From: Rhodococcoides kyotonense
GTDB taxonomy: Bacteria; Actinomycetota; Actinomycetes; Mycobacteriales; Mycobacteriaceae
DNA: 64,000 bases
Reading direction: 5' to 3'
Assembly: GCF_900188125.1 (NCBI RefSeq)
Contig: NZ_FZOW01000011.1
Location: forward strand, 186,001-250,000
Shown: positions 10,642 through 16,321 of the stretch, one piece after another
How positions within the stretch are numbered: the first letter of the stretch is position 1
How the letters are laid out: each line of letters opens with the position of its first letter
Program-made: the position numbers and the translations under genes
Notes under the pieces: generated by a model
Told to the model about the DNA's origin: nothing
Database searches by the model: none
The model's input: only the letters and a program-made list of their open reading frames with translations

Positions 10642-11843
10642 GCGACGGTGAATCCCGGCGCACCGACAGCGGACACAACGACGACAGCAACAAGGTCGAC
10701 AAGGTGGACGTGAACAAGAAATACACCGACGAGGAACTCGCCGGAATGACGCGTGAACAGCTCGTCGAGCTGGGCACCAACCTCGACCATGTCGACGTTG
10801 CCTACCGTCGCGATCGCTGGGCAGTCAAGGGCACTCGCGCCGAGAAGCGCGCCGAGCGCAGTGTCGCCGCGTGGTTCACGCTGGCAGGCGTCTCTGCTGT
10901 CGCGTTCATCGCGATCTACCTGTTCTGGCCGTGGCAGTACGCGGGCATGGGCGAAGTGAACTACGGCGCCTACACCCTGTACACCCCGCTCATCGGTCTC
11001 ACGATGGGTCTCGCGATCCTCGGAGTCGGCGTCGGAGCCGTCCAGTTCACGAAGAAGTTCATTCCCGAAGAGGTCTCCATCCAGGACCGCCACGACGGCT
11101 CGTCCTCCGAGGTGGATCGCAGGACTGTCGTCGCCGAACTAGGTGACTCGTTCGAGACGTCGACCCTCGGCCGCCGCAAGGTCATCAAGCGGTCGCTGTT
11201 CTTCGGTGGTGGAGCGCTCGGAATCATGGCTCTCATGCCGCTCGGTGGTCTGATCAAGAACCCGTGGGCCGAAGGCGACAAGTCGCCGCTCTGGGTTTCG
11301 GGCTGGACTCCGCGCTACGCTGGGGAGACGATCTACCTTCGGCGCGACACCGGACGTCCCCACGACGTCGTCCTGGTGCGTCCCGAAGATATGGATGCCG
11401 GCGCCATGGAAACCGTGTTCCCCTTCCGCGAGGCAGATCGCGGCGACGATCACGCTCTGCTCATGTCTCTGCGTGGAATTCGCAACTCGGTCATGCTCAT
11501 CCGTCTACGCACGGAAGATGCAGAGAAGGCCATCAAGCGTAAGGGCCAGGAGAGCTTCAACTACGGCGACTACTTCGCCTACTCGAAGATCTGCACCCAC
11601 CTCGGTTGCCCCACCTCGCTGTTCGAGCAGCAGACCAACCGCATTCTGTGCCCGTGCCACCAGTCGCAGTTCAACGCCCTCGAATACGGCAAGCCGCTCT
11701 TCGGCCCCGCTGCTCGTGCGCTGCCGCAGCTGCCCATCACGGTCAACGAGGAAGGCTTCCTCGTTGCCAACGGTGACTTCATCGAAGCCCTCGGACCTGC
11801 CTTCTGGGAGCGCCCGAACCGCGAAGCGGAGAGTGAATCATGA
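10638..11843 (+). CDS. qcrA: Menaquinol-cytochrome c reductase, Rieske iron-sulfur subunit
   Basis: The 401-residue protein has an acidic N-terminus, three predicted membrane spans and a C-terminal Rieske domain. The [2Fe-2S] ligands are Cys319/His321 in CTHLGC and Cys338/His341 in CPCH, with Cys324 and Cys340 placed for the stabilising disulfide. The start at 10638 overlaps the qcrC stop (ATGA); an upstream in-frame opening lies inside qcrC and is rejected. Its stop in turn overlaps qcrB. The three-span N-terminus is characteristic of actinobacterial QcrA. Confidence 0.96.
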
Positions 11844-13582
11844 GTCCTTCACTGCAGACCCTCGCCGCCAAGCAGGCAGACGACGTCGACAGTCGCTACC
11901 ACTTGGCACCCGGCCTGCGTCGTCAGATCAACAAGGTCTTCCCGACGCACTGGTCGTTCCTTCTCGGTGAGATCGCGCTGTACAGCTTCATCATCCTGCT
12001 GATCTCGGGTGTCTTCCTGACGCTGTTCTTCGATCCGTCGCTCAGCGAGGTCGAGTACAACGGCATCTACGAGCCGCTGCGCGGCGTGACCATGTCTCGC
12101 GCGTATGCGACGACGCTGGACATCTCGTTCGAGGTCCGCGGCGGTCTGTTCATGCGACAGATTCACCACTGGGCAGCGTTGATGTTCGCCTGCTCGATCA
12201 TCGTGCACATGCTCCGGATCTTCTTCACCGGTGCGTTCCGACGTCCGCGTGAGGCCAACTGGGTCATCGGCTGCCTGCTGCTGATCCTGGCGATGTTCGA
12301 GGGCTTCTTCGGTTACTCGCTTCCCGACGACCTGCTGTCCGGCACCGGTCTTCGTGCCGCGTTCTCCGGCATCACGATGAGTGTCCCGGTCGTCGGAACC
12401 TGGCTGCACTGGTTGATCTTCGACGGCGACTTCCCCGGCACGATCATCATTCCGCGCCTGTACGTCGCACACGTTCTGTTGCTGCCTGCGATCATCCTCG
12501 CGCTGATCGCCGCCCACCTGGCGCTGGTCTGGTACCAGAAGCACACGCAGTTCCCCGGCCCCGGCCGTACGGAGACCAACGTCGTCGGCGTCCGAATCCT
12601 GCCCGTCTTCGCCGTCAAGTCCGGCGCATTCTTCGCCGTGACGTTCGGTGTGCTCGCGCTCATGGGTGGTCTCCTGCAGATCAACCCGGTGTGGAACCTC
12701 GGCCCGTACAACCCGGCCCAGGTCTCCGCAGGTTCACAGCCCGACTTCTACATGATGTGGACCGACGGTCTTGCTCGTCTGTGGCCTGCATGGGACATCT
12801 ACATCGCGAACCGATACACGATCCCCGCGGTGTTCGCTGTCGCGCTCATCATGGGTCTCGTCTTCACCGTCATGATCGCCTACCCGTGGATCGAGAAGCG
12901 TCTCACCGGCGACACCGCTCACCACAACCTGCTGCAGCGTCCGCGCGACGTTCCGGTCCGTACCGCGATCGGTGCAATGGTTCTGGCGTTCTACATCGTC
13001 GCCACACTGTCCTGCATCAACGACATCATCGCGTTCAAGCTCGACATCTCACTGAACGCAATGACGTGGATCGGTCGAATCGGAATCCTGATCCTGCCTC
13101 CGATCGCGTACTTCGTGGCCTACCGCTTCTGCATCGGCTTGCAGCGCAGTGACCGCCAGGTTCTCGATCACGGCATCGAGACCGGCATCATCAAGCGTCT
13201 GCCTCACGGTCAGTACGTCGAGGTTCACCAGCCGCTCGGCCCGGTCGACGACCACGGTCACCCGATCCCGCTCGAGTACCAGGGCGCTGCAGTTCCGAAG
13301 AAGATGAACAAGCTCGGATCCGCAGGCAAGCCCGGCTCGGGATCGATGTTCCGTCCGGACCCCGTCTCCGAGAGCAAAGCACTCGAAGAAGCCGCACACC
13401 ACGGCGAACTCGAGCAGCTGGCCATGCTCCGCGAGTACCAGGCCGGAGTACACGGCAACGGTGCCAGCAGCAACGGCAACGGACACGGCTCCAACGGCCA
13501 TGGTTCCAACGGCCATGGTTCGAACGGCAACGGCTCGCCCGATCACTCTCCTGCACGCAAGGAAAGCGAAAGCGAGCACTAA
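11840..13582 (+). CDS. qcrB: Menaquinol-cytochrome c reductase, cytochrome b subunit
   Basis: This is the quinol-oxidising membrane core of complex III, 580 residues. Two histidine pairs for the b haems are visible in [17 protein letters not shown] and in [20 protein letters not shown]. The PDDL segment ([10 protein letters not shown]) and the PEWY-region equivalent (SQPDFYMMW) mark the family. After about residue 430 comes a hydrophilic tail that ends in an Asn/Gly/Ser/His repeat (SNGHG units) not needed for the core. It starts at ATGA overlapping qcrA and is the last gene of the unit, followed by a strong hairpin. Confidence 0.96.
13445..13540 (+). repeat. Tandem 15-bp repeat encoding the Gly/Asn/His tail of QcrB
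   Basis: Near-identical 15-base units (GGTTCCAACGGCCAT type) encode [19 protein letters not shown] at the end of QcrB. The units are in frame, so copy-number change by slippage would only lengthen or shorten a flexible cytoplasmic tail. Confidence 0.75.
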
Positions 13583-13595
13583 CCAGATCGAACTC

Positions 13596-13629
13596 GAAGG
13601 GGCGGCATCCATTCGGATGCCGCCCCTTC
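13596..13629 (+). terminator. Terminator of the ctaE-qcrCAB unit
   Basis: A perfect 15-bp stem (GAAGGGGCGGCATCC with its complement) closes an ATTC tetraloop 13 bases after the qcrB stop and is followed by GTGTTTCTC. Confidence 0.85.
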
Positions 13630-13779
13630 GTGTTTCTCGCTCAGTGGGCCCCGTGGATCTCACGGTGTGCGACGGTGGCTTCCGCGACACCACTCCCCTC
13701 CCCCAGTCACGCTCCCACCCGTCGACAGCACTGTGATGCCAACTGCGCCGTAATTCGAACAGCGCGTTGGCGCTGGACG

Positions 13780-13875: not shown

Positions 13876-13935
13876 TGTAGGCCTGGTTCCCGTCGGCCTG
13901 GTTCCGGTGTGCCTGATTCCTATGGGCCGGTTCTA
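13876..13935. repeat. Four degenerate 15-bp direct repeats across the HNH gene stop codon
   Basis: Units of five variable bases plus GCCTGGTTCC (or close variants) occur four times in register at 13876, 13891, 13906 and 13921. The HNH gene stop at 13920-13922 lies inside the array. The neighbouring minus-strand frame reads through it as HRNQA-type peptide repeats, so a frame change near the 3' end is possible. Confidence 0.6.
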
Positions 13936-15551
13936 CTTCGGGCACTCGGGCTGCTTCGGGGGCTGCGATTGGACGGCACGGGTCGTCGGAACGGATCGAC
14001 GCTCGCGGGTGGGATGAACTCGGGGTGCCTGTCGGTGCCCATGACCACTTCCCAGTCCGAGTGGTGCAGCATTCGGTGGTGGTGACCGCACAGCAACACG
14101 AGGTTGTCGAGATCGGTTGCGCCACCGTCGATCCAATGCTTGATGTGGTGGGCATGCGTCCACGCCGGGGGCTGTGTGCATCCCGGGAACGCACACCCGT
14201 GATCGCGGGCGACCAATGCTCGACGCTGTTTTCGCGTCGCCGTCCGTTCGGTATTTCCGAGATTCAACGGCACGCGATTCTCGTCGAGAAACATCGGGGT
14301 GAGGATGCAATCGCACGACAGCCTGCGTGCGGTCGTGACGGTGACCGGCCCGGTCCACGGAACCCAGCCCACACCGGCGTCGGCGATCAGGTCGCGGTAG
14401 AAGGACGTGTCCCGCACTCGTTCGTTCGGCGCTTCCGACCCACTGCTGGCACCCATCTGCTCACCCCAGGCCGCCCAGTGATCGGCTTCGGTCCACGTAT
14501 CGCCGAGAGACCACAGCTTCGCCTGGAGAGCCTCGGATCGAGTGGGGTCCCAGCCGCCCGTGATGTCCCAATCGGCGGGAGCATCACGGCCTGTCAGCGA
14601 CGCGATCGCCTCCTCGGCGAGTAGCCGGTGCAGTGCGTTGTCCCAGGACGAGTTCCAGCAGTGCTCGTCGCCGGACCGCTCGTCGTCGCTGCCGCGTGTT
14701 TCGTCGTCTCGAGTTTCGTGGTTGCGGGTGCGGTGGATATCGGCGAGATGATCGGCGCGGATGTGCAGATTGATGTGCGGCTTCTCGCCGCCTTCGGACG
14801 GTCCGTTACCTGCTGCCAGATAGCGTTCGACGAGTTCGGTGAACCCATCGGCGCGGCGTTTCGCCGGCGTGCGCGGGTCCGGGGTGCCGTCTTGCGCCGG
14901 AACAGGTTTCGACAACGCGGATAATGCTGTGAGGAACTGCTCTCCGGTCGCAGCGTCGAGGTCCGCTTTGACGGCGACTCGGCCGTTCATCGTGGTCGAG
15001 GCGTGCAGGGTGTTGCGGTCGAGGTCTTCCGACGGCGGCGGGTCGTCGGAGTCGAAGATGTGCTCGAGCGTCTTGATGCCGGCCCTGACGACGTCACGGT
15101 TGGCGCGGGGACCCGTCGCGGCGGCGATCAGGGCGGCGAGTGCCGGTTCCATCGCCTCGTCGGGCATCTTCGCCGGAGGCTCCTCGCAGAAACCGAGGAG
15201 CATCACCGCGAGGTCGATGGGCATCGATCCGGTGTCGAACGCGTCGGACACCTGCTTGTGGTTCTTCAGTCCGCGGGCGAGGGCCAGGATGCGCCCGGCT
15301 GCGGTGTTGTCGAGCAACGTCGACGCCACCAGCCACGGCCGAACGTTCTTGAACCCGAGTACTTCGGCGGGGACTCGATCGTCGATCGCGCGCACCAGAC
15401 GGATACGTTCGATCTCCAAGTCCTGGATCCGCTGCGACAACGCCACCGCATCCTGCAGTAGCTCCTTCTCGGATCTGCGCCACGACTCGTCCGACGAATC
15501 ACCGGCAGAACCGCCAGTATTCGCGTCGATCATGTCAGCATCCCCGCCCAT
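13920..15551 (-). CDS. DUF222 (13E12-repeat type) HNH endonuclease
   Basis: The 543-residue protein has an N-terminal DUF222 region (about 30-330) and a C-terminal HNH nuclease domain. The nuclease core shows CAFPGC, then HAHHIKHWIDGG, then NLVLLCGHHHRMLH, with zinc-binding cysteines and the HNH histidines and asparagine intact. This is the 13E12 family, multicopy in mycobacteria and Rhodococcus, whose substrate is not known. A perfect LexA box lies 13 bases upstream of the start. Two other in-frame starts are possible (ATG at 15533). It interrupts the order qcrB - ctaF seen in mycobacteria and may be a recent arrival. The C-terminal ~25 residues are low-complexity. Confidence 0.88.
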   Translation of the reverse strand: MGGDADMIDANTGGSAGDSSDESWRRSEKELLQDAVALSQRIQDLEIERIRLVRAIDDRVPAEVLGFKNVRPWLVASTLLDNTAAGRILALARGLKNHKQVSDAFDTGSMPIDLAVMLLGFCEEPPAKMPDEAMEPALAALIAAATGPRANRDVVRAGIKTLEHIFDSDDPPPSEDLDRNTLHASTTMNGRVAVKADLDAATGEQFLTALSALSKPVPAQDGTPDPRTPAKRRADGFTELVERYLAAGNGPSEGGEKPHINLHIRADHLADIHRTRNHETRDDETRGSDDERSGDEHCWNSSWDNALHRLLAEEAIASLTGRDAPADWDITGGWDPTRSEALQAKLWSLGDTWTEADHWAAWGEQMGASSGSEAPNERVRDTSFYRDLIADAGVGWVPWTGPVTVTTARRLSCDCILTPMFLDENRVPLNLGNTERTATRKQRRALVARDHGCAFPGCTQPPAWTHAHHIKHWIDGGATDLDNLVLLCGHHHRMLHHSDWEVVMGTDRHPEFIPPASVDPFRRPVPSNRSPRSSPSARSRTGP

Positions 15552-15563
15552 GCGCCAATTTTA

Positions 15564-15579
15564 TCGAACATACGTTCGA
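15564..15579. promoter_or_regulatory. LexA-binding SOS box
   Basis: TCGAACATACGTTCGA is a perfect match to the mycobacterial/actinobacterial SOS box TCGAAC-N4-GTTCGA. It lies between the divergent HNH endonuclease gene (start at 15551) and the DUF1737 gene (start at 15631). LexA bound here should repress the HNH gene and possibly both until DNA damage. Confidence 0.88.
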
Positions 15580-15618
15580 ACCACAACCTTAGCGTCGCAT
15601 CGTAGCTACAGGGATCGA

Positions 15619-15624
15619 TAAGGT
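15619..15624 (+). promoter_or_regulatory. Probable leaderless -10 element of the DUF1737 gene
   Basis: TAAGGT, then six bases, then the ATG at 15631, with no Shine-Dalgarno. The SOS box lies about 40 bases upstream of this element. Confidence 0.4.
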
Positions 15625-15630
15625 CGAGCC

Positions 15631-15801
15631 ATGAGCGACACCGAACGGCTGCGTTATCGCCTTCTTACCGGCCCCGACGACGCAGATTTCTGCCGTCGGG
15701 TGTCCGCGGCACTCGACGACGGTTATGTGCTGCACGGCGCACCGGCCGCCACATTCGACGGCGAGCGGGTCATCGTGGCGCAAGCGATCGTTCTCCCCTA
15801 A
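15631..15801 (+). CDS. DUF1737 domain protein
   Basis: This 56-residue protein (MSDTERLRYRLLTGPDDADFC, then VSAALDDGYVLHGAP) is a single DUF1737 domain. Family hallmarks are the Y-x-LLTG strand, the helix FCRRVSAAL and the GYxLxGxP turn. Function is unknown. It is divergent from the HNH gene and shares the 79-base intergenic region that carries the SOS box. It ends 44 bases before a terminator hairpin that belongs to the opposing ctaF. Confidence 0.85.
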   Translation: MSDTERLRYRLLTGPDDADFCRRVSAALDDGYVLHGAPAATFDGERVIVAQAIVLP

Positions 15802-15904: not shown

Positions 15905-16321
15905 TCAGTGCTTCTCGGGTCCGACGTGGTACTCGAACACCAGGCCTGCGGCTGCCGACAGCACCAGCACGACGCCGAAGGCGATGAGCCACCACAGGAA
16001 GAACGCGAAGCCGATTGCCGTGACCGAGGCCGCGGCGGCGAGCACGATCGGCCAGAAGCTGCCCGGGCTGAAGAAGCCCAGGTCGCCCGCGCCGTCGCTG
16101 ATCTCGGCGTCGTCGAAGTCCTCGGGACGAGTGTCGAGACGGCGGGCGACGAATCGGAAGTACGTGCCGATGATCAGCGTCAGGCCGACCGACAGCGCGA
16201 TGGCCGTGACACCGGCCCACTCGACACCGGTACGCGAGAAACCGGTGAACAGGGCGTACACGATCCCGACCAGAAGAAAGAAGACAGTCAGGATCTCGAA
16301 GATCTTGGCTTCGATTTTCAT
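15905..16321 (-). CDS. ctaF: Cytochrome c oxidase subunit IV (actinobacterial type)
   Basis: The 138-residue membrane protein has four predicted spans ([68 protein letters not shown]). It matches CtaF, the small fourth subunit of the actinobacterial aa3 oxidase. It follows ctaC by 18 bases in the same operon. There is an acidic cytoplasmic loop [16 protein letters not shown] between spans two and three. Confidence 0.94.

Follow-up and report, generated by a model that had tools for sequence, protein, structure and literature searches.

In the 64,000-nucleotide stretch of Rhodococcoides kyotonense DNA analysed here (the window), a LexA box lies between a DUF222/HNH endonuclease gene and a divergent DUF1737 gene, and it is in all probability the operator through which LexA controls the HNH gene. 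We consider it highly likely that the box serves the HNH gene alone and that the DUF1737 gene, with its own promoter, lies divergently beside it by chance. In M. tuberculosis 13E12/HNH genes are already known to be under LexA control; the window gene adds a probable further case, with an unusually uniform promoter in which the operator takes the place of the spacer. In the mechanism that we propose, LexA bound to the box, between a TTGNNN –35 and a TANNNT –10 element, would keep RNA polymerase off the HNH gene; upon DNA damage RecA would make LexA cleave itself, and the HNH protein would be made within the SOS response. The DUF1737 gene would have landed divergently, by chance, in the variable slot between qcrB and ctaF, where its own promoter would drive it. 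The features to which the text refers are the following, with coordinates in the window and the basis of each in brackets.

13595..13630, plus strand: terminator-like hairpin after qcrB, on the left side of the slot (sequence scan).
13920..15551, minus strand: gene for a DUF222 + HNH endonuclease of 543 aa, with ATG 15551 as its predicted leaderless start (domain search; box-to-ATG distance of 12-13 bases in relatives).
13927..15586, minus strand: block common with the R. kyotonense KB10 orthologue at 81% identity, comprising the gene, the box and the promoter up to the –35 element, with the DUF1737 gene outside (sequence comparison).
15558..15563, minus strand: predicted –10 element TAAAAT, immediately downstream of the box and 17 bases from the –35 element (sequence reading, relatives).
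15564..15579, no strand: LexA/SOS box, exact 12/12 palindrome (pattern match; 12/12 or 11/12 in 55/55 places including the window's).
15581..15586, minus strand: TTGTGG, predicted as the –35 element for the HNH gene (TTG found at this position in 53/53 places, TTG being no selection criterion).
15619..15624, plus strand: –10-like TAAGGT, 6 bases before the DUF1737 ATG, predicted as the gene's own promoter, with AAGG alternatively a ribosome-binding site (TANNNT in 10/25 DUF1737 loci).
15631..15801, plus strand: DUF1737 microprotein gene, 56 aa, a neighbour predicted to lie outside the SOS unit (domain search; codon comparison with the G115 homologue).

The product encoded on the minus strand at 13920-15551 carries a DUF222 domain (PF02720, 84.6 bits) followed by an HNH domain (PF01844, 31.6 bits), both above the curated cut-offs. 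Read on the same strand, the upstream elements follow each other in the order TTGTGG (15586-15581), one base, the box (15579-15564), TAAAAT (15563-15558), TGGCGC and the ATG at 15551, and the 17 bases between the –35 and the –10 elements are thus composed of one base and the box. Because of this order the operator appears to be the spacer itself, and the expected transcription start coincides with the gene's own ATG, so that the promoter looks leaderless. An alternative start at ATG 15533 is less likely, since this codon is missing in the R. kyotonense KB10 orthologue and the distance of 12-13 bases from the box to the first ATG is constant. What speaks against the box being an operator of the HNH gene only is that the –35 element of the window is weak beyond its TTG; a generic promoter scan of the region reported no promoter. 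The genome holds a lexA gene (TIGR00498, 262.7 bits) with two 11/12 boxes upstream.

The original prediction of an exact SOS box was borne out. The word TCGAACATACGTTCGA at 15564-15579 is an exact 12/12 LexA palindrome (TCGAAC-ATAC-GTTCGA) and the only exact match in the window, where 0.01 are expected (mean of 100 dinucleotide shuffles); its distances from the HNH and DUF1737 starts, given earlier as 13 and about 52 bases, were counted as 12 and 51. The whole genome of 6.31 Mb contains three exact sites and 90 sites with at most one mismatch, compared with 11 for a backwards control pattern. It could be argued from these 90 places, and from the 11 window matches with up to two mismatches, an unremarkable number against the 6.77 expected, that the palindrome is a chance TCGA-rich word without function, but the expectation for exact sites in the window and the constancy of its position and neighbours in 55 of 55 places make this extremely improbable.

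These 55 places, found in 15 genomes of the same genus, share the layout TTGNNN, one base, a box of at least 11/12, TANNN(T/C), six or seven bases and ATG, with the ATG 12 or 13 bases after the box in every case; they are the places among the matches listed (E up to 1e-30) in which the match starts within the first 25 residues, include the window's own and represent one close subfamily. The layout was counted in 48 and then in 53 places without TTG as a criterion, and the last two of the 55 were found with TTG in the pattern; five of the 53 loci lacked an N-terminal BLAST match in the first of these counts, and each later gave a box of at least 11/12 and the same layout. When the 48 copies are aligned, the bases of the two arms are nearly invariant, the weakest being a C in 41/48, with more variation in the four central bases. 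Conservation is also good upstream of the promoter, at –20 to –10, and the HNH-gene copies are related by descent, so the constancy of the box alone is no proof of selection, and common descent probably accounts for part of the upstream conservation.

The family can also be reached from its control region. A search of 401 genomes of the family with the pattern alone (TTG, box, TANNNT) found it at 57 places, spread over 16 genomes of which 15 belong to this genus, and gave none for the backwards control; 56 of the 57 places are in this genus, and the strict layout occurs in two of the 31 genera sampled in the family. Thirty of the 57 places were read, 25 of which were already among the 55, and 29 of these 30 head a gene with the N-terminus of the DUF222/HNH family, including four of the five new ones; at two of the places read, a contig end left 10 and 46 residues to judge by. 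Here a predicted SOS switch identifies a gene family with unusual clarity, in that operator and promoter alone found the family at nearly all places read. The role of 13E12-type DUF222/HNH proteins in the SOS response becomes testable outside tubercle bacilli, in a genome with a single strict copy, such as the window's, or in one with several. The sole match outside the genus (L182, G190:C23:17881-17909) precedes an open reading frame that, by eye, is not DUF222-like. At another locus (L194, G026:C12) the operator is intact and the reading frame stops prematurely after 54 codons; some of the copies thus seem to be in decay.

In its own genome the window copy is the single place with the strict layout. 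A box of at least 11/12 is found upstream of nine of the ten DUF222 genes that have a 5' end, a count that leaves out three genes cut by contig ends; several of these genes have other promoter layouts, and one (L014) is without a box. In the more distant DUF222/HNH group of the genus, a box near the start was found in none of the 12 testable loci out of 16. The LexA box is therefore a property of certain DUF222 subfamilies. Three DUF222 genes of the same genome (L009, L010 and L011, on C14, C22 and C42) stand at contig starts with nearly the same upstream DNA and an 11/12 box, and the contigs seem to break at these near-identical copies.

The earlier proposal that the DUF222/HNH gene has a candidate LexA box, like the 13E12 genes of M. 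tuberculosis, is supported by the sequence. According to PMC4181829 and PMC5005354, the M. tuberculosis LexA box is TCGAAC(N)4GTTCGA and 13E12/HNH genes belong to the LexA regulon, and PMC8151990 describes five putative HNH endonucleases that answer mitomycin C in a RecA-dependent manner. Like the window gene, these are HNH-domain genes of a multi-copy family with this box, but in the window the operator takes up the entire spacer of a seemingly leaderless promoter; the likeness is one of family type. A start codon at the transcription start of an SOS gene is also found in M. tuberculosis in the leaderless lexA mRNA (PMC2897130), although there the gene is lexA itself and not a DUF222/HNH gene. 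A literature search that covered few subscription papers found no paper on DUF222/HNH or the 13E12 repeat family with Rhodococcus, and none tying DUF1737 to SOS control.

On the other side of the box, the plus-strand frame 15631-15801 looks like a real DUF1737 gene, because it scores 72.8 bits and its differences from the homologue in genome G115 are mostly synonymous (30 of the differing codons are synonymous and 8 non-synonymous, and third positions account for 34 of the 44 base changes). A TANNNT word stands 6 or 7 bases before a possible start codon in 10 of 25 DUF1737 loci, the window's included, against a background of 0.0033 per position there, so that many DUF1737 genes appear to own a leaderless promoter; for this count, upstream meant before the matched domain, each locus was tried with spacings of 5-8 bases and with as many as five start codons, and the loci are not independent of each other. 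With the predicted start at 15631 the box falls at –52 to –67, which is beyond the usual reach of a blocking repressor. The gene is rare and patchy, being present in 2/37 genomes of the genus, 15/251 of the family sample and 11/394 of the class sample (own genome included). Twenty-eight plasmid records, from Klebsiella, Acinetobacter, Sinorhizobium, Streptomyces, Pantoea and others, carry relatives with at least 80% query coverage; in 20 of these the identity is 60-80%, which is high across phyla for a protein of 56 residues and unknown function.

According to the original prediction, one box would control both divergent genes, with LexA repressing DUF1737 as well through a promoter that overlaps the box. 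This would agree with the position of the box between two divergent starts, 51 bases from the DUF1737 ATG, and TAAGGT could be a ribosome-binding site instead of a –10 element: the word TAGCGT (15590-15595), of the form TANNNT, together with the AAGG before the ATG would then permit a second, leadered promoter nearer the box. However, no TTG-like –35 element is seen by eye at the right distance from TAGCGT, and the homology with the G115 gene begins only at 15616, past the box. Conservation of the pair had been set beforehand as the test, and it is absent. Neither the HNH gene nor the DUF1737 gene, and hence not the pair, lies between qcrB and ctaF in any of the 33 other genomes of the genus in which both ends were found (three of the 36 were not judged, a contig ending beside ctaF). 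Furthermore, in the 330 bases that precede the domain none of the 24 other DUF1737 loci has a box that reaches 10/12, the best word scoring 9/12, and none has a match to the window HNH protein in its flanks (about 1.5 kb on each side, shorter in one locus). Because the pair is not conserved in relatives, co-control of DUF1737 is unsupported; we rejected it as the main reading and regard it as quite improbable. A misleading lead, that of an SOS-controlled DUF1737 gene, is thereby removed.

The box might instead act on DUF1737 in the opposite sense, either because LexA at about –60 activates the gene or because induced transcription of the HNH gene disturbs it, so that the two genes would respond to damage in opposite directions. 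The centre of the box lies about 60 bases upstream of the predicted DUF1737 start, which is a usual distance for an activator. The other DUF1737 loci, however, give no support, and we hold such an effect to be very doubtful. The case for it draws on the whiB2/fbiA pair of M. tuberculosis, in which, according to PMC4181829, one LexA box lies between divergent genes, only whiB2 is under LexA, and LexA is inferred to be the inducer of whiB2 from the box that it has in common with fbiA. In both cases a single box between divergent genes would act on just one of the two; LexA is taken to activate whiB2, whereas the HNH gene of the window is expected to be repressed.

Around the box the gene order is qcrB (11840-13582, plus strand), the HNH gene (minus), DUF1737 (plus) and ctaF (cytochrome-oxidase subunit IV; 15905-16321, minus), with the convergent qcrB and ctaF flanking the slot. 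A small helix-turn-helix gene, its domain checked in one copy, occupies the slot in 19 of 36 other genomes. In genome G006, which is R. kyotonense-like, the slot holds a RecQ-like helicase gene that includes a DUF3553 domain (L102:1183-2973, minus strand); a PadR regulator, a glyoxalase-like gene or an alpha/beta hydrolase was found in single other genomes (11 gaps examined). On these comparisons the slot is best described as a permissive gap between convergent operons, an ordinary site. Among the named relatives found, that of R. kyotonense KB10 comes closest to the HNH gene, with about 80% protein identity; this copy sits at another genomic place, box included, and the common block stops at the –35 element. 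Since the HNH block ends at 15586 and the block that DUF1737 shares with G115 begins beyond the box, two units of different history seem to join between 15587 and 15615. The suggestion that the pair is a mobile or recombination-derived island may hold in part: the slot cargo varies between species and the KB10 copy of the HNH gene is elsewhere, but no integrase domain was found in the two slot genes. A phage or plasmid origin of the HNH gene was also considered and rejected, the search having returned only partial relatives of the protein (one phage record and six plasmid records, none full-length).

A wider reading, which we regard as rather unlikely, is that operator, promoter and DUF222/HNH gene together form a dispersing, SOS-triggered element in Rhodococcoides. 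DNA damage would turn on the nuclease, and its cuts would favour the copying of the cassette with its operator, either into new sites or from one copy to another; the nuclease would in this way serve its own multiplication. If true, this would account for the several copies per genome (at least seven N-terminal places in G023 among the matches listed), for the one fixed promoter and the copies at contig ends, and for the presence of this cassette at one place in the window genome and at another in R. kyotonense KB10. Mobile-element traits are ascribed to the 13E12 family in PMC5005354, which cites Davis et al. 2002.

Another exact LexA palindrome of the same genome, at G000:C5:161892-161907 (L199:1393-1408), lies about 24 kb to the left of the window; it sits inside two long overlapping open reading frames on opposite strands and, read by eye, perhaps just before an acetyltransferase-like gene.
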